Below, piece by piece: positions 1,016-42,619 of a stretch of DNA of 64,000 bases. A model generated the notes under the pieces. The model made no database searches. It had not been told where the DNA came from and was given only the letters and a program-made list of their open reading frames with translations. The position numbers and the translations under genes are program-made. How positions within the stretch are numbered: position 1 is the stretch's first letter; each line of letters opens with the position of its first letter. Source of the stretch: Amaurobius ferox (lineage: Eukaryota > Arthropoda > Arachnida > Araneae > Amaurobiidae); contig OX578146.1 of the NCBI GenBank assembly GCA_951213105.1, positions 49,259,275 through 49,323,274 on the forward strand, given 5' to 3'.

Positions 1016-4000
1016 TAACTGCCAAGTGTCCTTATGTCTGTATGTCACGCTTTTTTTAGGCACTTTCTGAATAGATGGAGACTTGCAATTTTGTACACGG
1101 GTGGATCGTTTGATAAAACCTACTGGAAAAATTGAATTTTTTTAAAATGTTCTATAGAGGGGTTGCCCCATACCAAAATGTTTGAAAAGTGAAATGATAG
1201 AATAGCATGCTTTGCAATGAGATAGAAACTTTAAATTTGGTGCACTGATAAATCTTTCGAAAGGAAGAAAGTGTGCAATTTCAGATTTCCAATATACAAG
1301 GTATGCGCCGCACACCAAAATGTTCGATTTACTGAATAAATGAGTAACACCGCCTTTAAATTTTGATAGGGGCTTGAAATTTGGTACATGGCCTAATCAT
1401 TTAATGAAAACACCCAAGGCGAATAGAATTTCTCAGAAATGTTCGATTATGGGGGTGCCCCAGAGAAAAACATTCGAAATGTGAAATGATAAAAAAAAAC
1501 ATGCTTCAGTATGAGATAGAAATTTCAAATTTGGTGTACGGGTAGATAATTTGGAAGGAAAGTGCACAATTTCAATTATCCTATATATTACACTTTAGGG
1601 GTTGCTGCACACCAAAATGTTCGATTTTCAGAATAAAGGGAAAATACCTCTATCAAAGCATGATAGAGATTTGATATTTGGTATATGGGAGAATCATCTG
1701 ATAGAAAACCCGAGAAGAAAGGAGTTTTTTTTTTAAATGTTCATTTAAGGGGGTGGGTACGCCACACAAAAACATTCGAAAGATAAAATGATAAAAAAAG
1801 CATGCTTTGCGATAGATAAGATAGAGACTTCAAATTTTGTGTATCTGTAGATTGTTGTAAAGGAAGAAAGTGTGCAATTTCAGTGTTCCAGCATTTGCTA
1901 CTGTAGGGGGGTGTCGCACACTAAAATATTCGATTTGACGAACAAATGAAAAATGTCACCCTTACAATGTGATAGCGGCTTGAAATTTGGTATATGGGCT
2001 AATCATTTGATAAAGCACTCCAAGACGTATACAGATTTTCAAGAATGTTCATTTATGGGTGTGCTCCACAGGAAAACTTTCGAAAGGAGAAATGATAAAA
2101 TTGCATTCTTCGGATGAGATAGAGACTTTAAATTAGTGTATGGGTAGATAGTTCAAAAGGAAGAAATGTACAATTTAAGTTTTCCAACATTTTCTTCTTT
2201 AGGGGGTTCTGCACACCAAAATATTCGATTTGCCGAATAAATGTGAAATGCGAATTATTCAAAAATTTAGATTATTCAGCGGTGGTTTATTGCGAGACCG
2301 TTGATTTTCAAAGGGTATTCAAGAAAGTGATAGACGCTTGATATTTGGTATATGGGAGAATCATTTGATAGAAAATCCAAGAAGAATGGAGTTTTCAAAA
2401 ATGCATATTTAAGTGGGTTGGTACTCCATAGAAAAACATTCGAAAGGTGAAATGATAGAAAAAGCATGCTTCGCGATGAGTTAGAGACTTCAAATTTGGT
2501 GTACGGGTATATGGTTGGAAAGGAAGAAAGTGTGAAATTTCAGTCTTCCAATGTTTTCTACTGTAGGGGGTGCCACACACTAAAATGTTTGATTTGACGA
2601 ACAAATGAAAACGTTTCCTTTACAATGTGATAGAGACTTGAATTTAATATATGGTCTAATAACTTGATAAAAAATCCTAAGATTATTACGGTTTTTCAAA
2701 AATGATTATTTAAGGAGGTGCAACACAGAAGAACGTTCGAAAGGTGAAGTGATAGAAAAACATGCTTCATAATAAGATAGAGACATCCAAATTTTGTGTA
2801 CTGGTAGATAGTTTGAAAGGAAGAAAGTGTGCAATTCCAGATTTCCAAAATTTTCTACATAAGGGGGTGCCGCACACCAAAATGTTTGATTTACTGAATA
2901 AATGAGAAATGGCTCCTTTAATATTTGATAGAGGCTTGAAATTAGGTATATGGACTAATCATTTGATGGAAACAACCAAGACGAATATAGTTTTTCAAAC
3001 ACGTTCGTTTAAGGGGGTGCTCCAGAGAAAAACGTTTGAAAGGTGAATTGACAAGAAAACATGCTTCGGGATGAAATAGGGATTTGAAATTTGGTGTACG
3101 GGTAGATAGTTTGGAAGGAAGAAAGTGTGCAATTTCAGTTTTCCAATATTTTCTACTTTAGGGGGTGTCGCACACAAAAATGTTCGACTTTTGGAATAAA
3201 GTAGAAACACCCCTTTTAGAAAGTGATAGAGGCTTGATATTTGGTATATGGGTGAATCATTTGATAGAAAACCCAAGAAGAATGGAGTTTTAAAAAATGC
3301 ATATTTAAGTGGGTTAGTACTCCATAGAAAAACATTCGAAATGATAGAAAAAGCATGCTTCGCGATAAGTTGGAGACTTCAAATTTGGTGTAAAGGTAGA
3401 TTTTTAAAAAGGAATAAAGTGTGCAATTTCATTCTTCCAATGTTTTCAACTGTAGGGGGGGGGGGGGGGGGGGTGCCACACACTAAAATTTTCGATTTGA
3501 TGAATAAATGAAAAATACATCCTTTACAATGTGATAGAGGATTGAATTTAGTATATGGCCCAATCACTTGATAAAAAACCCTAAGATTATTATGGTTTTT
3601 CAAAAATGATTATTTAAGGGGGTGCAACACAGAAGAACAGTCGAAAGGTGAAGTGATAGAAAAACATGCTTCACGATAGGATAGACATTAAATTTGGTGT
3701 ACTGGCAGATCGTTTGAAAGGAAGAAAGTGTGCAATTTCAGATTTCCAATATACAGGGGATGCCGCACACCAAAATGTTTGATTTGCTGAATAAATGAGT
3801 AACACCGCCTTTAAATTTTGATATGGGCTTGAAATTTGGTACATGGGCTAATCATTTAATGAAAACACTCAAGGCAAAGAGAATTTCTCATACATGTTCG
3901 ATTATGGGGGTGCCCCAGAGAAAAACATTCAAAATGTGAAATGATAAATAAAAACATGCTTCCGTATAAGATAGAAATTTCAAATTTGGTGTACATGTAG

Positions 4001-7000
4001 ATAATTTGGAAGGAAGAAAGTGTACAATTTCAATTATCCTATATATTACACTTTAGGGGGTGCCGCACACTAAAATGTTCGATTTTTGGAATAAAGGAGA
4101 AATGCCTCCTATTAAAACATGATAGAGACTTGATATTTGGTATATGGGTGAATCATTTGATAGAAAACCCGAGAAGAATGGAGTTTTTTTAAAAAATGTT
4201 CATTTAAGGGGGTGGGTACTTCACACAAAAACATTCGAAAGATAAAATGATAAAAAAAAGCATGCTTTGCGGTAAGATAGAGACTTCAAATTTTGTGTAC
4301 GGGTAGCTTGTTGGAAAGGAAGAAAGTGTGAAGAAGTAGAAACACCCCTTTCAGAAAGTGATAGAGGCTTGATATTTGGTATATGAGCGAATCATTTGAT
4401 AGAAACCCCAAGAAGAATGGAGTTTTCAAAAATGCATATTTTAGTGGGTTGGTACTCCATAGAAAAACATTCGATAGGTGAAATGATAGAAAAAGCATGG
4501 TTCGCGATGAGAGGATGAAATTAGGTATATGGACTAATCATTTGATGGAAACAACCAAGACGAATATAGTTTTTCAAACTCGTTCGTTTAAGGGGGTGCT
4601 CCAGAGAAAAACGTTTGAAAGGTGAATTGATAAGACAACATGCTTCGGGATAAAATCGATTTGACAAACAAATGAAAAACGCCTCCTTTAAAATGTCATT
4701 TTTCAAAAATGTTCATTTAAGGGGGTGCAACACAGAAGAACGTTCGAAAGGTGAAGTGATAGAAACACATGTTTCACGATAGGTAAGAGACATCAAATTT
4801 GGTATACTGGTAGATCGTTGGAAAGGAAGAAAGTATGCAATTTCAGATTTCCAATATTTGCTATTTTAGGGATGCCGCACACCAATATGTAGGATTTTCA
4901 ATATGTAGGACCAATATGTAGGATGTTCATTTAAGGGGGTGCAACACAGAAGAACGTTCGAAAGGTGAAGTGATAGAAACACATGTTTCACGATAGGTAA
5001 GAGACATCAAATTTGGTATACTGGTAGATCGTTGGAAAGGAAGAAAGTATGCAATTTCAGATTTCCAATATTTGCTATTTTAGGGATGCCGCACACCAAT
5101 ATGTAGGATTTTCGGAATAAATGAGACACACTTCCTTTTAAATGTGATAGAAGCTTGATATTTGGTATATGGGCCAATCATCTAATAAAAAACCCAACAC
5201 GAACAGAGTTCTTCAAAAATATTCATTTATGGGTTTGCTCTATAGAAAAATGTTTGAAAGGTGAGATGATAAAATAGTATGCTTCGGGATGAGATAGAGA
5301 CTTTAATTTAGTGTACTTGTAGATAGTTCAAAAGGAAGAAGTGCACAATTTAAGTTTTCCAATATTTTATTCTTTAGGGGGTTCTGCACATTAAAATATT
5401 TGATTTGCCGAATAAATGTGAAATGTGAATTATTAAAAAAATTGCAATATTCAGGGGCTGCTTATTACGAGACCGTTGATTTTCATCGAGTATTTGGCTA
5501 GTATTTGCCAAGTGTCTGTCTGTCTGTCTGTCACACTTTTTTAAGACACTTCCCGAATAGATAGAGATTTGCAATTTGGTACACGGGTAGGTCGTTTGAT
5601 AAAACCCTCTGGAAAATCGAATTTTTCAAAATGTTCTATAGAGAGATTGCCCCACACCAAAACGTTCGAAGAGTGAAATGATAGAAAAGCATGCTTTGCG
5701 ATGAGATAGAGATTTCAAATTTGGTGTACGGGTAAACCATCCAAAAGGAAGAAAGTGTACAATTTCAGATTTTCTATATTTGATACTTTAGGGGGTGTCA
5801 CACACCAAAATGCTCGATTATCTTAACAAATGAGAAACACCTGCTTTAAATTTTGATAGAGGCTTGAAATTTGGTATATGGGCTAATTATTTTATGAAAA
5901 CACCCAAGACAAAATAGGTTTCAAAAACGTTCGTTTAAGAAGGTGCTCCAGAGAAAAAAGTTCGGAAAGCGAAATGACGAAAAACTAAGCTTCGGGATGG
6001 AATAGAGGCTTCAAATTTGGTGAATGGGTAGATAGTTTGAAAGGAAGAGTTTGTGCAATTTCAGTATTTTCTAATTTAGGGGGTGCCGCAAACCGAAATG
6101 TTTGAATTTCCAAATAAATGAGAAACGCATCCTTTAAATTTTGATAGAGGCTTGAAATTTGGTATACTGGCAAATCATTTAATGAAAACACCCAAAATGA
6201 ATAGAGATTCTCAGAAATGTTCAATTAAGGGGATGCTCCAGAGAAAAACTTTTGAAATGCGAAATGATAAAAAAAAAACATGCTTCGGGATGAGATAGAG
6301 ATTTCAAATTTGGTGTACTGGTAGATAATTTGGAAGGAAGAGAGTGTACAATTTCAGTTTTCCAATATTTTCTATTTTAGGGGGTGTTGCACACCAAAAT
6401 GTTCGATTTTCGGAATAAAGGAGAAACACTCCTTTTAAAACGTGATAGAGGCTTGATATTTTATATATGGCCGAATCATCTGATAGAAGATTTTCAAAAA
6501 TGCTTATTTAAGGGGGTAGGTACTCCACACAAAAACATTCTAAAGGTGAAATGATAGAAAAAGCATGCTTCGCAATGAGGTAGAGACTTCAAATTTGGTG
6601 CATGGGTAGATTGTTGGAAAGGAAGAAAGTGCGCAATTTCAGTGTTCGAACATTTGCTATTGTAGGGAGTGATGCACACTAAAATATTCGATTTCACGAA
6701 TAAATGAAAAACGCCTCCTTTACAATATGATAGCAGCTTGAAATTTGGTATATGGACTAATCATTTGATAAAAAACCCAAGATGAATACAATTTTAAAAA
6801 TGCTCATTTAAGGGCATATTACACAGAAAAGCATTCGAAAGGTGAAATGATAAATCATGCTTTGAGATAAGATAGAGACTTCAAATTTGCTGTACGGGTA
6901 GATAGTGTGAAAGAGTGCTAATTTAGATTTCCAATATTTACTTTGGGGTGCCGCACACCAAAATGTTCGATTTTTTGAATAAGTTATACACTCTTCCTTT

Positions 7001-7372
7001 TAAATGTGATAGAGGCATGATATTTGGTATATGGGCCAATAATCTGATAAAAAACCTAAGATGTATAGAGTTTTTCCTAAATGTCCATTTATTGCTGTGC
7101 TCCACAGTAAAATGTTTGAAAGGGGAAATGATAAAATAGAATGCTTCAAGATGAGATACAGACTTTAATTTTGTGTACTGGTAGATAGTTCGAAAGGGAA
7201 AAGTGCTCAATTTAAGTTTTCTAATATTTTCTTCTTTAAGGGGTTCTGCACACCAAAATATTCGATTTGCCGAAGAAATGTGAAATGAGAATTATTCAAT
7301 AATTTACATTATTCAGGGGCTTGCTTACTGCGAGACCGTTGATTTTGAAAGGGTATTCGGCTAGTAACAATT
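1016..7372. repeat. Tandem array with dimeric ~300 bp unit (satellite-like)
   Basis: About twenty diverged units repeat every ~290-315 bp; the landmark CATGCTTCG recurs near 1209, 1501, 1801, 2466, 2761, 3060, 3353, 3665, 3955, 4261, 4640 and 6565. Each unit is two alternating, distantly related halves of ~150 bp. Both halves end in GGGGTGCCGCACACCAAAAT-type sequence; one continues with GTGAAATGATAGAAAA and the other with GAATAAATGAGAAA. Longer modules are delimited by a start block with GTCTGTCTGTC (1016, 5503) and an end block with GAGACCGTTGATTTT (2294, 5470, 7337). Open frames in it are repeat artefacts. I see no protein signature. Confidence 0.85.
4889..5110. repeat. Recent internal duplication in the array
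   Basis: Sequence from about 4716 (GTTCATTTAAGGGGGTGC) to 4905 is repeated almost unchanged from about 4925 to 5109. It includes the distinctive CACCAATATGTAGGATTTTC junction and is more similar than neighbouring units are to each other, so this is a recent duplication inside an otherwise diverged array. Confidence 0.7.
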
Positions 7373-34359: not shown

Positions 34360-35610
34360 CGAGGGTCACACTGAAATTTTTGAGACAGGGGCAGACGATA
34401 TGAGCTAGAAAAAAATTATTGGTCAGATATTTAAATTTGAACTCTTTTATGTCCATAGACGATAATTTGTGGCAACAATTACAATTTAGCTATCGTAGAA
34501 TAAATTTTGAAAGAAAAGAAAATTAAGTTGATGCGAGAGCATTATCGAGTTATGATTTTAAAGTAGGGCTAAATCAAGAAGAATGTTTTCAACGTCTACA
34601 ATTAGCATATAGAAATCATGCCCCATCTTGGGCCACTATATTCAGATGGTTTACAGAGTTTAGAAGAGGTTGAAATTCTCTCATGGATGTGGAACACACA
34701 GGAAGACCTTTGTCAGCTGTAGTTCCAGAAAATGTGTCGGCCATTCAAAAAATGTTAATCGATGATAATTGTTGTACCTGCTAAATGATAAAGAAGGAAC
34801 TTAACATTGGATCCGCAGCTATACATAAAATTATTCATGAAGAACTGCATATGAAAAAATTAGTTTGTCATTGGGTCCCCCATAATTTAACAGTACACCA
34901 AAGTGTGGAGAGTGTCAGAATCAGTAAAGAAACCCTAAAATTATTTAACAATGGTGGATACCGTATAATTTCAAAAATCATAACTGGTGATGAAACGTAG
35001 ATACCGTTTTTTGATGTTCCAACAAGTCAAGAAAGTAAAGTATAGGTCTTTGCAGATGACCCCCAAACCAACAATGGTGAAAAGACAATGAGCAATGAAA
35101 AAAATAATGTATGCCATGTTTTTTAAAAGTACAGGTCTGGTCAAAGCCATAAAGCTAGAGTGACAGAAGACAGTTACAGCTAACTGGTACACAACTGTCT
35201 TCAGAAATTCTTCAGAAAGTGAATGTTAGGGGACTCATGCTTCACCATGAAAATGAGTCTTCTCATTCAACAAGAATGACAGTCGAATTTCTTGAACAAA
35301 AAAAACATGAAAGTGATAGAACATCCACCTTACTCTAATGATCTTGCTATGTGTGATGTTTGGATATTTTTTAATCTAAAAAAAAGTTTACATGGGCATC
35401 ATTTTCACTCCGAAAATGAGATTGACAAGGCTATAAAAGCATATTTTTTATGGATTCCAAGAAATAGATGGCTCGAAGCATTTAATCTTTGGAAAATTCG
35501 CCTACAAAAGTGCATTGATGTTGGAGGGGAGTACTTTGAACACTCCTAAGAGTTGGTATGTTTAACTTGTATCACTTAGCCATATCTCAAAAATTTCAGT
35601 CTGACCCTCA
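34360..35610 (+). mobile_element. mariner element (1251 bp) inserted in the hAT
   Basis: Flanked by TA (34358-34359, 35611-35612). Inverted ends CGAGGGTCACACTGAAATTT and, from the right, TGAGGGTCAGACTGAAATTT differ at few positions over ~30 bp. Length is typical of full mariners. Confidence 0.92.
34500..35549 (+). pseudogene. mariner transposase, inactivated
   Basis: HTH part: LNQEECFQRLQLAYRNHAPS, ATIFRWFTEFRRG, HTGRPLSAV (34560-34735). Catalytic part: WVPHNLT, ISKIITGDET (first D, about 34990), LHHENESSH (second site, about 35245), PPYSNDLAMCDVWIFF (third D, about 35350), ending GGEYFEHS. The second catalytic Asp, normally HHDNA, reads Glu here. Stops occur after GDET and elsewhere, with shifts near 34672, 35190 and 35325. 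A dead copy of a DD34D-type cut-and-paste transposase. Confidence 0.9.
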
Positions 35611-36100
35611 TATAAAGATTGTATTATGCATCGCTTAGAACAGGCACTAACTCCATTTCATTTCCTTTCAAATATGACTGATCCTATTCTAAGAGGAGAA
35701 AGATTAACTAATAAACAAGAAGCTTCTACTGAACAATGGATTGGAAAACTAAATACTGATTTATATTGCATTAAAGATGTTCCAAATAAAAGACACAGAC
35801 TTCTATCCAGAATCAATGTTTTCACAAAATGTGATAGAGTCAATTTATGCAAAAAAAATGGTGGAAAATCATGCACTATAAGGCGGAGAAGAATATGGTT
35901 TTAAATGCCAACTTTTGTAAATTTATGGAAGACCTGCATTCAATTACACTCACATCAGCATCAATTGAGCATATTTTTTCAACTTTCGGACTAGTTTAGT
36001 CAAAACTAAGAAATAAACTTGGATGTGAAAAAGTAAAAAAATTAGTAAAAGTTTATAGATTACTTAAATCAAAAGGTGTTACTGAAAAGGATCGATAATT

Positions 36101-36625
36101 GCAAGTTTAAAAAAGTACAATTGTAATAATATATTAATTAATATGTGAAGGAACAAATAATTAAGGATATAGTGTTAAATTATTAATACATGCACATTAA
36201 AAGCTAGAATTTAAAGGAGTGTAGTGTTTGCTTAATAACAGTGTAATGTGTTCTTAATTTTAGATGCATCATACCTAATTTAACTTAATGTTGCAGGTAA
36301 TATTTAGAACTATAATATGGATTACGTTAAAATATTTTTATCAGGACAAAGTACATCCCTTTTAATTCAATAAATAATTCTCTGCATTTGTAAAAGAAAC
36401 TATTTAAAATATGGGGGGAGTGGGAGGGAGTAAGAACAGCTAAATAGCACTGAATATGTACATTTGCTTATCTACTTCTTTTAAGGTTATGGGCTTTAAA
36501 TATGCCAATGTATTAGCATCACTAACAAGCACATTGTTTGCATGTAAGTTAATTTTTGAATAAAGCCATTTTGAAATTTTAAAGGGGTTTTTTCACCTGG
36601 ATTTCTTTTTAAAAACCCACCTGGG
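36101..36625 (+). other. 3' non-coding part of the hAT
   Basis: No gene. Ends in AAAAACCCACCTGGG, the left target copy of the element inserted at 36626. Confidence 0.5.
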
Positions 36626-36635
36626 CTAATCCAGT

Positions 36636-37090
36636 GTGACTCACGTTACAATTGGAGAAATTTTTCAAATAAAAATGATTTGATATTTTTACATTTTTGA
36701 CAAAATAGTTTTTCTTTTTTGTTTTTCCATATTAGTTATGCATAAATATTTGAATAATGGATGGTTTAAAAAATATGTTAATGTTAAATGGGTATGGGTG
36801 TTAACGTGAGTCACACTACTATTTTTCATATAAAAATAGTAGTGTGACTCACGTTACAGTAAATATGACATGGAATTTTTGTTCATTTTTAAAATTTAAA
36901 TTTCTTCCAAACCATATGATATATGAAGTATAAATCACAATGAAAATTTTATACTTGTATTGAAAAATATATATGCCTTCTTGGAATATAAATAAATACA
37001 TCATTAGGGCTTTAATTAAAAAATATCATTGTGACTCACGTTTCATCAATTTTGTGACTCACGTTACATCAACTTTGTAACCCTCATTAC
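36636..37090. repeat. Left subterminal array of GTGACTCACGTTAC
   Basis: Exact or near-exact copies at 36636-36649, 36801-36814 (reverse), 36844-36857, 37031-37044, 37054-37067 and a degenerate one at 37077-37090. The motif contains TGACTCA, the AP-1/TRE core, and is likely a protein binding site, by analogy with subterminal transposase sites. Confidence 0.85.
36802..36856. repeat. Perfect palindrome, 25-bp arms, 5-bp loop
   Basis: Arms 36802-36826 and 36832-36856 are perfect reverse complements around loop CATAT. Each arm includes one TGACTCACGTTA motif. Confidence 0.95.
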
Positions 37091-37219
37091 ATCCTTCTGG
37101 TGCTTTCTTTCAATGTGTTTTACAGTATATGTAATTATAAATTTATAAAATAACACAACTAGAAGTATATGCAATGGTATAAAACAACTTTTATTTAAAA
37201 ATAGTGAAATTAACTTTTT

Positions 37220-39318
37220 TACCACATAACTTATTAGAATCGAAAATGTCTACGGGAATTAACAACTGGATGTCCCAACTTTTCAATAAGTTTGTCTTTA
37301 GTATAAAATATTATATCAGTTTTGTTTGGCCATTTCCAATGCTTTCCTATGGCTTACATAGTCTGAACTTTATATTCTTCAGCAATATCATCTGTTGCTT
37401 TTATTTCACCAGGGTAACATTTACCCTGATACTTGACAAAATACCAATCACCAATTTTGGGATTTTCAGTGAGTGTGCTGATATTGGAAAGCTTATTTGT
37501 GAGAAGATTACCATTAGTCACCACTAACTGGTGAACTTTGGAAATATTTGTGATAGGCTGGGCTTTTTTAAAAACTTTTTCCAACTCTTAGGATTTATTT
37601 CTCTTCTCAATTTCAGCATTTGTAACCTCCAGAACTTTAACGGTAGATGTAATGTTAGCAGCCTGAACAAAACTTGCAGCATTTACCACAATGTGTTGTC
37701 GGTTACTTACTGCTCCCCACATCTGTTTTTTTACCGAACCTCCAATTCCATCTACCTATTTATTCCTTCAATGCCATGTGAAGTGGCAAAGAAATTCCAC
37801 TTTATCACAAAATTGTATTTTGTTTGAAGGACACAAAGAGCTGCTGCTATATAACAGTTCTTAAATTGTGATGATGGTCCAACAGACCATATGTTTATTT
37901 CCAATAAGTTTTTTGGTAGATTTTCTAATATTTTATCTACGTACGCTACAATAATTTCCTTTGAATGTGTTGTATTATCGGAGGCTAATACACAAGGATA
38001 AAGTATGCCGGAATGCCAGATTGCAGCTGTAAATAAACTTACCTGACTTTGTTGCCAATGGGCACTCTGTACTTCATCTTGATACTTACAGATATAGTTT
38101 TCTGCAAAATCAACTTTAATCAGAGCTATTTTAGGATAGGTGGTTTCTATATTCTGTAAATAGTCTATATTTAGGTGTCACAACATCATGCTGTTTTTGG
38201 TACTCCTTTGCCTGATACCTTTTTACATAACAATGCTCTAAAAATGTCGGTGTGAGTTTACAGATGTGCGAGATGAGTTCTTCAAGTGTTCCTTTATGTA
38301 GTACTTTTTGGATGTGTTCTTCACCATCATTTTACCATTCATACCATTTAATATACGTTAAATTATCAATCTCTGCATTCTCAATATACTTCTTTTGAAA
38401 ACCTAACCCATCCTTGCATTCTTTACAGTGGTTGTACCAACAATCTTCCTTTGGTATTTCACAGATAATAGTTTTGGGAAATGTATTTGAATATGTAGGT
38501 AAAATATCTGGAAAAGCTTGGTGTAAGCAAAAAAGTGTACCTATACCTATAATTTTCATGGTATTTACATAAACACAGATTATGTGGCAATTTATTTCTT
38601 GTTAACACATGCTTCGGTCTTAATTCTGCAAATTTACTTCGTCCAATTTTAGCTTCAGAATGATCTTCTTGAAATAGTTTAAATGTTTCTGTAATAGAGT
38701 TCAACAAGTGTCTAACTTGAGCTTTGGATTTGAAACCATCCTGCCTCAACGTGATGGAGTTCTTTCTTTCGAGTGCTTGGCGGCTTATAGAATCTCTCTG
38801 GTAAAAAGTATTTACAAGTTCAACAGTTTCTGCTGCAATGGTTGAGGTAATAGATGGTGGTAACAGATGGTGGTGATGAAGTTTCAGGTTCTTGAGATGG
38901 AATTGTATTTTGACAACCATCTAAAAAGTATAATCTAAGAATCATTGCAGTCTTTTTTCTCGGAGAAGAAGGCAAATTATGACGGGCTCTAGCTATTGCT
39001 TTTCCAAGAGCACTTGCTGAGTAATTTACAGTTGGAGGGTTATCTTTCAATGCTACTTTATTTTTTAGGGCTTCTCTTTTCTTTGCTCTGAATGCAGCTA
39101 CTCGGTTCTTCACCGCTAACCTCTTTTCTAACTGTATTTTATTTTGTATAGAATTTGGAAGTTTCAATAGGTCTTCTTTTTATTTTTATCTACTTTTTCA
39201 CCTCTTCCAAATGTTTCTTTTTGTACTGATCATATGTGCCTTCATCCTTCATCTTCTGGCGTCTCTTTCGCTGACGTTCAGCAGCAGTCATTGGCTTATG
39301 GATGTTTTTAGAGTCCAT
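37220..39318 (-). pseudogene. Frameshifted gene of an unnamed transposon-like protein family
   Basis: Minus-strand order: ATG at 39316-39318, MTAAERQRKRRQKM and KKKHLEEVKK; basic bZIP-like NRVAAFRAKKREALK (39080-39125) and ALGKAIARARHNLPSSPRKK; ETVELVNTFYQRDSISR and IGRSKFAELRPKHV (38610-38820); cysteine group CEIPKEDCWYNHCKEC (38395-38465); VDFAENYICKYQDEVQSAHW (38060-38120); WSVGPSSQFKN (37860-37895), where relatives have SDG; WNFFATSHG (37765-37800); GDWYFVKYQGKCYPGEI (37405-37460). I know this architecture from uncharacterised predicted proteins of aphids, cnidarians and spiders; D..., SDG and H suggest an RNase H-fold nuclease, which is inference. About 700 codons, broken by several frameshifts and stops. 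Confidence 0.7.
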
Positions 39319-39438
39319 TCTCTTAAATCTGCAGGTAAAACGAAATATAAATTAACAATTTTTGAATATATGAAATAGTTTAGGTCTTTTATTAATAATA
39401 TTTTAAATAAAAGGTAATATTTGCTGCATTGTACTGGT

Positions 39439-39660
39439 GTGACTCGCATTACAGTGGCGTGATTCACGTGGCGTAACATGTGACTCATGTTACCATATAT
39501 TTTAATGTTTTTTTGTATATGTGTACAGCTTTTTGAAAATTTTTGGAGTTATATATTAATTGGGTATACATCTCAGAAGCAAGGCATGAAATTATACTTA
39601 AATTGGTTATGTTCTTCTGTAGTTATAAAGAAAAATACATGTTTTTGTGACTCACGTTAC
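39439..39660. repeat. Right subterminal array of GTGACTCACGTTAC
   Basis: Copies at 39439-39452 (GTGACTCGCATTAC), 39459-39477 (degenerate), 39480-39493 (GTGACTCATGTTAC) and 39647-39660 (exact). They lie immediately upstream of the start of the broken minus-strand gene, so they could act as promoter elements as well as end sites. Confidence 0.8.
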
Positions 39661-40060
39661 ATATGTAATTAAGACTTATAAATTTTCAATTTAAATTACA
39701 ATTAATCAATCAATTATTTTAAAAAAGCATTTATAACTTAGCTAAATGATGTGAAAAATATATAATCATAGTAAAAAATTTCAAACTTACCGGTTGCAGC
39801 AGGGAATGAAGCTCTAAAATCAGCAATGTCACAGTCTCAAAAAATCATGGAACGAAATGGTGCATAAAGGTAGCCATTTTGAAATGAAAATACTGTTGCC
39901 ACCATTAGTTTGCATGAACAAATAATATTTGGACATATTATGACTAAAAAAAAAATAATCAATGCATATAATAAATTTATATTTTTTCTACCTCTGTCCC
40001 CGATTTCATGGATTAGCCCACCTGGGTTTTTTCGGGTTGGGAAAAATTAGACCAACACTG

Positions 40061-41259: not shown

Positions 41260-42619
41260 TACACTCTATAACAAAAAATTCGAAGCACAAACAAGGAGTT
41301 GTCCGATTGTAATGACATTTCATATGCAAAGACATTTTGAGTGAAATGCAAATGAATAAAATTTGGTGTCCAACGAATAAATAGTGGGAGCTCCAGCGCA
41401 TTGGAACTGAGGTGTATATAAGGAGTGATTTTGAATCTGTGATCAAAATTTCTGTTGCATTTCGACTGCGGATATCTTATGATGACTGTAACAATGCCTC
41501 GCCGAAAGATTTGTGCTCATTACGAGCATATGTCAGTGTTTGAAAGAGGTCGTGCTATCGGATTGAAGGAGGCTGGTTGGACGAATCGAAGAGTCGCTCG
41601 ACACGTGGGTCAAAGCGATGCGGCGATTAGATGATGCTGGCAAGAGTGGGTTAGAGTCAGGAGGGCAGCGGTCGACCTAGGGCCACAACAGAATGAGAAG
41701 ACAGAGCGATTGTCAGAGCAGCTGTTACAGCACCAGAATCTTCGTTATCAACTATCCAAAGTGTGACCCACAAACATGTGTCCAACATGACCCTCTGCAT
41801 ATGACTGAGAGAGTGAAATATACACTCACACCAAATTACCTCTCACGCCTGTACACCGTCAAGTCCAATTACAGTGATACCGGGTTAGATCAAATTGGAA
41901 CTGTGCTGACTGGGAACGTATTGTCTTAAGTGACGAGTCCCATTTCCAACTGTGTCCTGACGACAACCGCAGACGTATATTGCCCTTACTATTGCATGCC
42001 ACACATGCCCAGAACAAGGCGTTATGGTCTGGGGTGCCATCTCCTTTGATAGCCGGACCCCTTTGATAGTCATTTCTGGCGCACTGACAGCACAGTGGTA
42101 TGTAGACAAATTTCTACGACTAGTTGTGTTACCGTTCCTTTTGCGACACCCCGAACTTACTTTTCTACAAGATAATGCTCGGCCACACACGGCACGTGCT
42201 GCTATGAATTGTCTTCAAGCTTGCCCAACACTTCCTTGGCCAGCTAGGCCTCCTGATCTCTCTCCCATAGAGCACATTTGGGACATTATGGGAAAGCGAT
42301 TGCAACCATCCCGGAATGCTAACAATTTAGCCCAGATGGAGACGATTGCCCAGTTGAAGACAATTTAGCAAGACATTCCGCAGGACACCATCCGTGAACT
42401 TTATCAGTCTATGCCACGCCAGGTGACATCTTGCATCCAGGCCAGAGGTGAACCAACGCCTTATTGACTCCCTTCCTTTGTATACGGTCAAACTCTAAAT
42501 CATTAAATTGTTCTGAAATTTTAATCGTTTCTTTTTCTATGTATGTTCTTCACATCCACTAATTTTTATCACAATCGGACAACTCCTTCTTGGTGCGCTG
42601 ATTTTTTTGTTATAGTGTA
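41260..42619 (+). mobile_element. Tc1-like transposon, near full length
   Basis: Left end TACACTCTATAACAAAAAAT and right end, read inward on the minus strand, TACACTATAACAAAAAAATC; both continue to a shared AAGGAGTTGTCCGATTGT. TIRs of about 50 bp with TA at the edges, length 1.36 kb. Confidence 0.92.
41480..42466 (+). pseudogene. Tc1-like transposase, inactivated
   Basis: Starts MPRRKICAHYEHMSVFERGR then GLKEAGWTNRRVARHVGQSD (paired-type HTH) and a stop after DAAIR. After several frameshifts: RIVLSDESHFQLCPDD (first D, about 41940), GVMVWGAISFDSRTPL, FLQDNARPHTARAAMN (second D, about 42170), PPDLSPIEHIWDIMGKRL (E, about 42275), ending near QARGEPTPY. All three catalytic acids survive; the linker region at 41650-41900 is the most damaged. 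The family is very abundant in orb-weaver spider genomes, by memory. Confidence 0.9.

Follow-up and report, generated by a model that had tools for sequence, protein, structure and literature searches.

Subterminal repeats at conserved distances from the ends of a spider DNA transposon, probably of the Sola superfamily

Introduction

In a 64,000-nucleotide stretch of the Amaurobius ferox genome (contig OX578146.1, positions 49,259,275 to 49,323,274 of the forward strand, hereafter the window), a transposon carries a short repeat containing TGACTCA, the core of the AP-1 (bZIP) site, in both of its subterminal zones. A sequence-only reading of this stretch had connected the motif with a basic stretch of the encoded protein that resembles the bZIP signature N-x2-AA-x-R, proposing a transposase that contacts its own end repeats in a bZIP-like manner. 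The locus raises the question of whether the motif and the protein are linked in this way, and of what the repeats are for if they are not. En/Spm, Ac and other transposons are known to carry short repeats, arrayed in each subterminal zone, to which the transposase binds.

Results

Ends, target duplication and setting of the element

The element, designated family F1, was delimited to 36623–40019 (3397 bp) by its terminal inverted repeat (TIR) match and by alignment with 13 further full-length copies. Its gene lies on the minus strand; the end at 36623, on the 3' side of the gene, is called the A end, and that at 40019 the B end. The short inverted ends described earlier were recovered as 11-bp TIRs, GGGCTAATCCA / TGGATTAGCCC, at 36623–36633 in plus and at 40009–40019 in minus orientation. 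The TIR begins at GGGC in all 14 F1 copies, giving termini of GGGC..GCCC. A target duplication, as had been claimed, is present, but it comprises 4 bp, ACCT, at 36619–36622 and 40020–40023, and no more; all 14 copies, with ends set by the TIR alone, are flanked by a perfect duplication of exactly this length. Duplications of 6, 8 or 10 bp were rejected as artefacts of a palindromic target: the near-palindromic sequence of the target site itself accounts for the 10-bp direct repeat CCCACCTGGG.

The proposal that the element had inserted into a hAT remnant is weakly supported, by a hAT dimerisation-domain match at 35838–35996 (E 0.0054; 16.9 bits versus a cut-off of 21.4) and by a hAT-like end at 40034–40060, just beyond the element. 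Other repetitive sequences were observed in the window. A transposase fragment at 41961–42365 matched DDE_3 (E 1.6e-7) and appeared Tc1-like by eye, and frame pieces at 34527–35550 appeared mariner-like by eye, one of them (34785–34997) having no Pfam match at E<=1. Positions 1020–7370 form a tandem or satellite-like block, with many mutual matches of 71–100% identity in a self-comparison of the window.

The repeat array is confined to one family and fixed in position

The motif array reported for this element was confirmed, as was TGACTCA within the motif. Nine sites matched TGTGACTCACGTTACA at up to four mismatches, of which the left flank holds six and the right flank three. On the plus strand, the repeat is exact at 36635–36650, 36843–36858, 37053–37068 and 39646–39661, carries one mismatch at 37030–37045 and two at 39438–39453 and 39479–39494, and is degenerate at 37076–37091 (four mismatches) and 39459–39472 (three mismatches). 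An inverted copy at 36800–36815, on the minus strand, is part of a 25-nt perfect hairpin (36802–36856), and both were found in only one of the 14 copies, that of the window. A head-to-head motif pair, noted in the window and in L001, was rejected as a family trait, being absent from 13 of the 14 F1 copies. The 14-mer core GTGACTCACGTTAC at up to three mismatches had 12 matches inside the element, some of them overlapping palindromic matches, against a Markov expectation of 0.13 (maximum 2 among 100); elsewhere in the window it had one match. The exact TGACTCA occurred 13 times in the window, seven times inside the element and six times outside.

Across the 3.56-Gb genome, the exact 14-mer had 46 matches, compared with 12 for a control in which the pattern was read backwards. 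All 46 fell at 20 places, each a copy or fragment of F1, and there was no exact match outside these places, although the control implies that a few chance matches would have been unsurprising. Of the 19 places other than the window, 13 have both TIRs, which brings the full-length copies to 14 with that of the window, and L019 and L024–L028 have one recognised end or none. Either a correctly distanced TIR or remnants of the transposase mark every place but L027, where only the B-side trio of repeats, correctly spaced, is present. The 13 further full-length copies are 94.1–97.2% identical to the window copy, and the 14 are 93.6–99.5% identical among themselves.

All 14 copies share the same ends and carry the motif array at fixed distances from them. 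Counted from the A end the sites lie at 14, 193, 380 and 403 bp (in the window 36635–36650, 36843–36858, 37030–37045 and 37053–37068), and from the B end at 362, 527, about 543 and about 563 bp (39646–39661, 39479–39494, 39459–39472 and 39438–39453). In the window copy the last three A-side sites stand at 222, 409 and 432 because of the private hairpin. The confinement of the motif and its fixed distances support the earlier description of an unnamed transposon carrying its own end repeats.

The transposase and its relatives

The gene at 37237–39318 (minus strand; first Met at 39318, ends estimated from three frames) is broken by frameshifts and stops whichever of the three frames is read, and Val stands in place of the second conserved Asp (WSVGPSSQFKN). 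The window copy is dead, and none of the 14 F1 copies has a full-length frame, the longest being 371 aa. Searching with the read-through translation gave 358 relatives at E<=0.001, and 719 were retrieved with a profile at E<=1e-5. Among the 120 matches listed per search, the named organisms were all animals, and most matches were nameless; no transposase name occurred among the 120 listed of the 719. In an alignment of 137 proteins of 550–1100 aa, D376, D452 and D493 (P0001 numbering) are invariant in all members, as are Cys232, Cys234, Cys279 and Cys282. This pattern suggests a DD40D transposase preceded by a metal-binding part, with the Asp triad presumably catalytic within an RNase H fold.

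No Pfam domain covered the transposase core in the ten relatives scanned, and DUF7869 matched 3 of 63 members with a best E of 0.0041, too weak for use. The core motif strings were not mentioned in the literature searched. A scan of genome contigs returned one locus, L001, from 106 candidate stretches, and no relatives were found on the viral contigs scanned. Variation in domain content was also observed. Twelve related transposases of about 900–1060 aa (P0069, P0070, P0071, P0074, P0082, P0091, P0103, P0145, P0146, P0151, P0154 and P0157) have an added Ulp1-type C48 protease domain (PF02902), and all of them fall in one clade of 13 with a support of 0.999. The gene models P0044 and P0124, which join the transposase to an integrase core (PF24764) or a dipeptidyl-peptidase annotation, are either fusions or annotation errors.

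Seven families share a site map with different repeats

When P0001 was used to search the genome, 65 of 3,011 candidates were scored and yielded 74 matches; among the matches used, L029, L030, L050 and L056 have full-length, stop-free frames. Six further families were distinguished, each with its own repeat, read in every family from the A end, at which the 3' side of the gene lies: F2 (L029, L030, L031, L044 and L053) with GTGACTGATGTTAC; F3 (L055, L056, L060 and L062, and L058 without a recognised right end) with GTCACGTGTGGGAC; F4 (L050, ends set by eye) with ATCACCTGTGTGAC; F5 (L001) with GTGTTGGACGTAC; F6 (L059) with GGTAACGGACTAACA; and F7 (L061) with YGTGACTCACACT. The transposases of the seven families are 28–47% identical between families. 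An exact 4-bp duplication flanks 25 of the 27 elements that have both ends, a count for which the end search itself favoured 4 bp in part of the elements, F1 being free of this bias. The exceptions are L001, which has no target duplication (AAAT vs TTCT), and L056, which has one mismatch (ATTA vs ACTA).

L001, a contig of 4 kb assigned to a bacterial metagenome-assembled genome, encodes a full-length member of this protein family; as the named relatives are animals, it is probably host contamination of the bin. A common GTG-N4-ACGT core of the F1 and F5 repeats was rejected as strong evidence, because 284 of 20,000 shuffles aligned equally well, and it was further discounted because it is not kept in F2–F4 and F6.

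Despite their differing repeats, the seven families keep nearly equal repeat distances from the ends. With the F1 map given above, the sites of F2 lie at A 14/193/382/405 and B 365/531/548/565, those of F3 at A 14/194/392–394/426–428 and B 358–360/524–527/538–541, those of F4 at A 14/193/383/404 and B 374/531/553/575, and those of F5 at A 14/183/371/392 and B 365/520/542/556. F6 and F7, each represented by one element, have A 13/193/380/402 with B 361/515/541 and A 12/192/379/402 with B 363/530/555, respectively. Overall, the distances fall near 14 and at 183–194, 371–394 and 392–428 bp from the A end, and at 358–374, 515–531, 538–553 and 555–575 bp from the B end. At the B end, F3, F6 and F7 have one site fewer and F2 has one more, inner sites are inverted in F4 (three), F5 (one) and F6 (two), and those of F1 carry 1–3 mismatches. 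The map counts exclude palindromic matches that overlap, a ninth site in F2 (at 582) and two weak sites in F4 (one at 610, one internal). They also exclude L044, in which the inner B sites have shifted to 749 and 766.

Random placement came as close to F1 as F2, F3, F4 and F5 do in 1, 4, 1 and 0 of 100,000 draws at a tolerance of 25 bp, and in 0, 3, 16 and 2,214 draws at 6 bp; the tolerances were chosen after the maps were seen, and the draws ignore kinship, families in one genome sharing descent and so not being independent draws. The simulated F3 map combined the A sites of L056 with the B sites of L055, and the simulation covered F2–F5, F6 and F7 having been found later. Only 3 of 8 sites of F5 agree with F1 within 6 bp, and a rigid-shift control on the L001 sites gave chances of 0.0014 (11 bp) and 0.017 (8 bp). 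An earlier, weaker test with the window's own sites gave p values ranging from 0.014 (5 bp) to 0.0002 (20 bp).

Superfamily placement

Several superfamilies could be set aside by their published signatures. According to the signatures described in PMC9587614, hAT, P, MuDR, Kolobok and Dada transposases have a C/DxxH between the second and last catalytic residues, and none was seen by eye between D452 and D493 of P0001. The CMC group, as described in PMC12730594, has C(2)C and H(3-4)H motifs in this interval and mostly CA..TG termini, whereas P0001 has no Cys between D452 and D493 and F1 ends in GGGC..GCCC. The description in PMC10045372 gives IS3EU a 6-bp duplication with TA..TA termini and Zator a 3-bp duplication; the 4-bp duplication of F1 rules out both, as do its termini for IS3EU.

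The Sola superfamily, as outlined in PMC10741241, comprises DDD transposases with 4-bp target duplications, sizes of mostly 2–9 kb, TIRs of 11–1124 bp and variable termini. At the level of that description, our element agrees with Sola1–3 in its 4-bp duplications, size within 2–9 kb, 11-bp TIR and variable termini, and its three invariant Asp residues, as a putative catalytic triad, would correspond to DDD. We therefore think it likely that the element belongs to Sola, a placement made from the published description, and F1 is probably a new family of a known kind. The same element and site map might instead belong to another superfamily with 4-bp duplications, such as AcademX, Ginger or a branch of CMC, or to an unnamed one. 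The missing Pfam model over the core, the lack of a transposase name among the profile matches listed and the core motif strings found nowhere in the literature searched speak for such a placement, but the combination of DDD, a 4-bp duplication and a short, variable TIR is that of the published Sola description (PMC10741241), and we regard another superfamily as a real but unlikely possibility.

The AP-1 core and the basic stretch

The minus-strand gene does encode NRVAAFRAKKREALK, as had been noted, and the basic stretch with NRVAAFRAKK lies at approximately 39078–39131 on the minus strand. Among the five copies inspected besides the window, NRVAA recurs in L011, L012, L013 and L018, and L017 has NQVAA, making the signature a consistent feature of F1; N-x2-AA is, as far as the aligned sequences indicate, peculiar to F1. 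The likeness to bZIP factors and AP-1 sites consists of this signature and of the TGACTCA core in the F1 and F7 repeats. Were the repeats read by a bZIP-like basic helix, its Asn and Ala-Ala would touch the TGAC half-site of TGACTCA. In keeping with such contacts, the basic character of the stretch goes with a conserved position, F1 alone has N-x2-AA among the five families read for both stretch and motif, and within the F1–F2 pair F1 has NRVAA together with the AP-1 core, while F2, the nearest family, has neither. What is conserved in the stretch, however, is R-x-x-K-x-R-x-x-K: among 63 aligned relatives, R66 is kept in 56, K69 in 45, R71 in 61 and K74 in 49, and only 3 have Asn in the column where the window copy has it. 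The leucine heptad L-x6-L-x6-L was absent within 42 residues downstream of the basic stretch in all 115 of 159 proteins in which this stretch was recognised, and 68 of the 115 have a Pro within 28 residues downstream.

Against the PDB, the family profile produced a single match at E<=1 and the window fragment three at E<=10, with no bZIP chain among them; no bZIP family in Pfam matched the window fragment at E<=10, and bZIP was absent among the 25 of 71 families listed in a Pfam scan of 63 members. A PS00036-like pattern occurred in 1 of 158 proteins and was absent from the window fragment.

The related families also separate the motif from the residues. The F2 transposase, about 47% identical to that of F1, goes with TGACTGA in place of TGACTCA, keeping the TGAC half-site without Asn or Ala-Ala. 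F7 breaks the correlation between motif and residues, because TGACTCA occurs in its repeats with RREEMKKYREKK in the basic stretch, without Asn or Ala-Ala, in a transposase 28% identical to that of F1. The proposed bZIP link between motif and protein was thus not upheld, and a bZIP-like helix reading these repeats seems to us very improbable. The F7 element (L061, 956–4291, reverse orientation) has a near-palindromic repeat that contains the AP-1 core and may share its ancestry with the F1 repeat or be a recurrence.

The repeats could alternatively be bound by bZIP factors of the host (AP-1, CREB or Maf-like), which would promote expression of the transposase gene or open chromatin at the ends. 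The presence of TGACTCA in both the F1 and the F7 repeat, despite transposases of 28% identity, would fit such a role, as would the three repeat copies upstream of the gene start (39438–39661). The core is, however, absent from five of the seven families, the site map is kept without it, and the repeats lie on both sides of the gene, the outermost only 14 bp from an end; a host-factor role is accordingly quite improbable. The likeness of the repeat to an AP-1 site is probably incidental.

Discussion

What has to be explained is a spacing that held while repeat and protein diverged. We consider it likely that the element is a dead cut-and-paste DNA transposon, probably of the Sola superfamily, whose family-specific repeats are sites of its transposase and whose fixed distances serve to pair the ends. 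The transposase, through whichever of its domains reads the repeat, would recognise a family-specific word, some 14 bp long and occurring about eight times, with four sites near 14, 193, 380 and 403 bp at the A end and four near 362, 527, 543 and 563 bp at the B end. Subunits bound at these fixed distances would pair both ends before cutting, the distances setting the geometry of the paired-end complex, and TGACTCA in the F1 repeat would be one spelling among seven. Since the repeat sequence turns over while the distances hold, the geometry appears to be under selection and the repeat to co-evolve with its binder.

The short-repeat arrays in both subterminal zones are shared with En/Spm and Ac. 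The present families differ in keeping their distances from one family to the next as the repeat turns over, in their 4-bp duplications and in having no match to the En/Spm and Ac transposases. To our knowledge, no site map has been published for Sola.

The steps of the map are about 180, 190 and 22 bp at the A end and about 165, 17 and 20 bp at the B end, the latter behind a 360-bp arm. Because steps of 165–190 bp are of the size of a nucleosome repeat, the map might be a physical ruler that predates the recognition sequence, with transposase subunits pairing across a wrapped nucleosome and chromatin serving as the ruler; we offer this as a speculative and unlikely extension of synapsis by bound transposase.

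Comparisons of transposon ends are mostly made on sequence. In the present families, transposases of 28–47% identity go with preserved distances and a changing repeat. At least four families in one genome, together with several relatives that have open reading frames, would allow binder and repeat to be swapped between families in vitro. A classic transcription-factor core in a transposon repeat need not imply a borrowed DNA-binding domain, and the conserved map separates what the synaptic complex would need, a geometry, from what DNA binding would need, a matching word.
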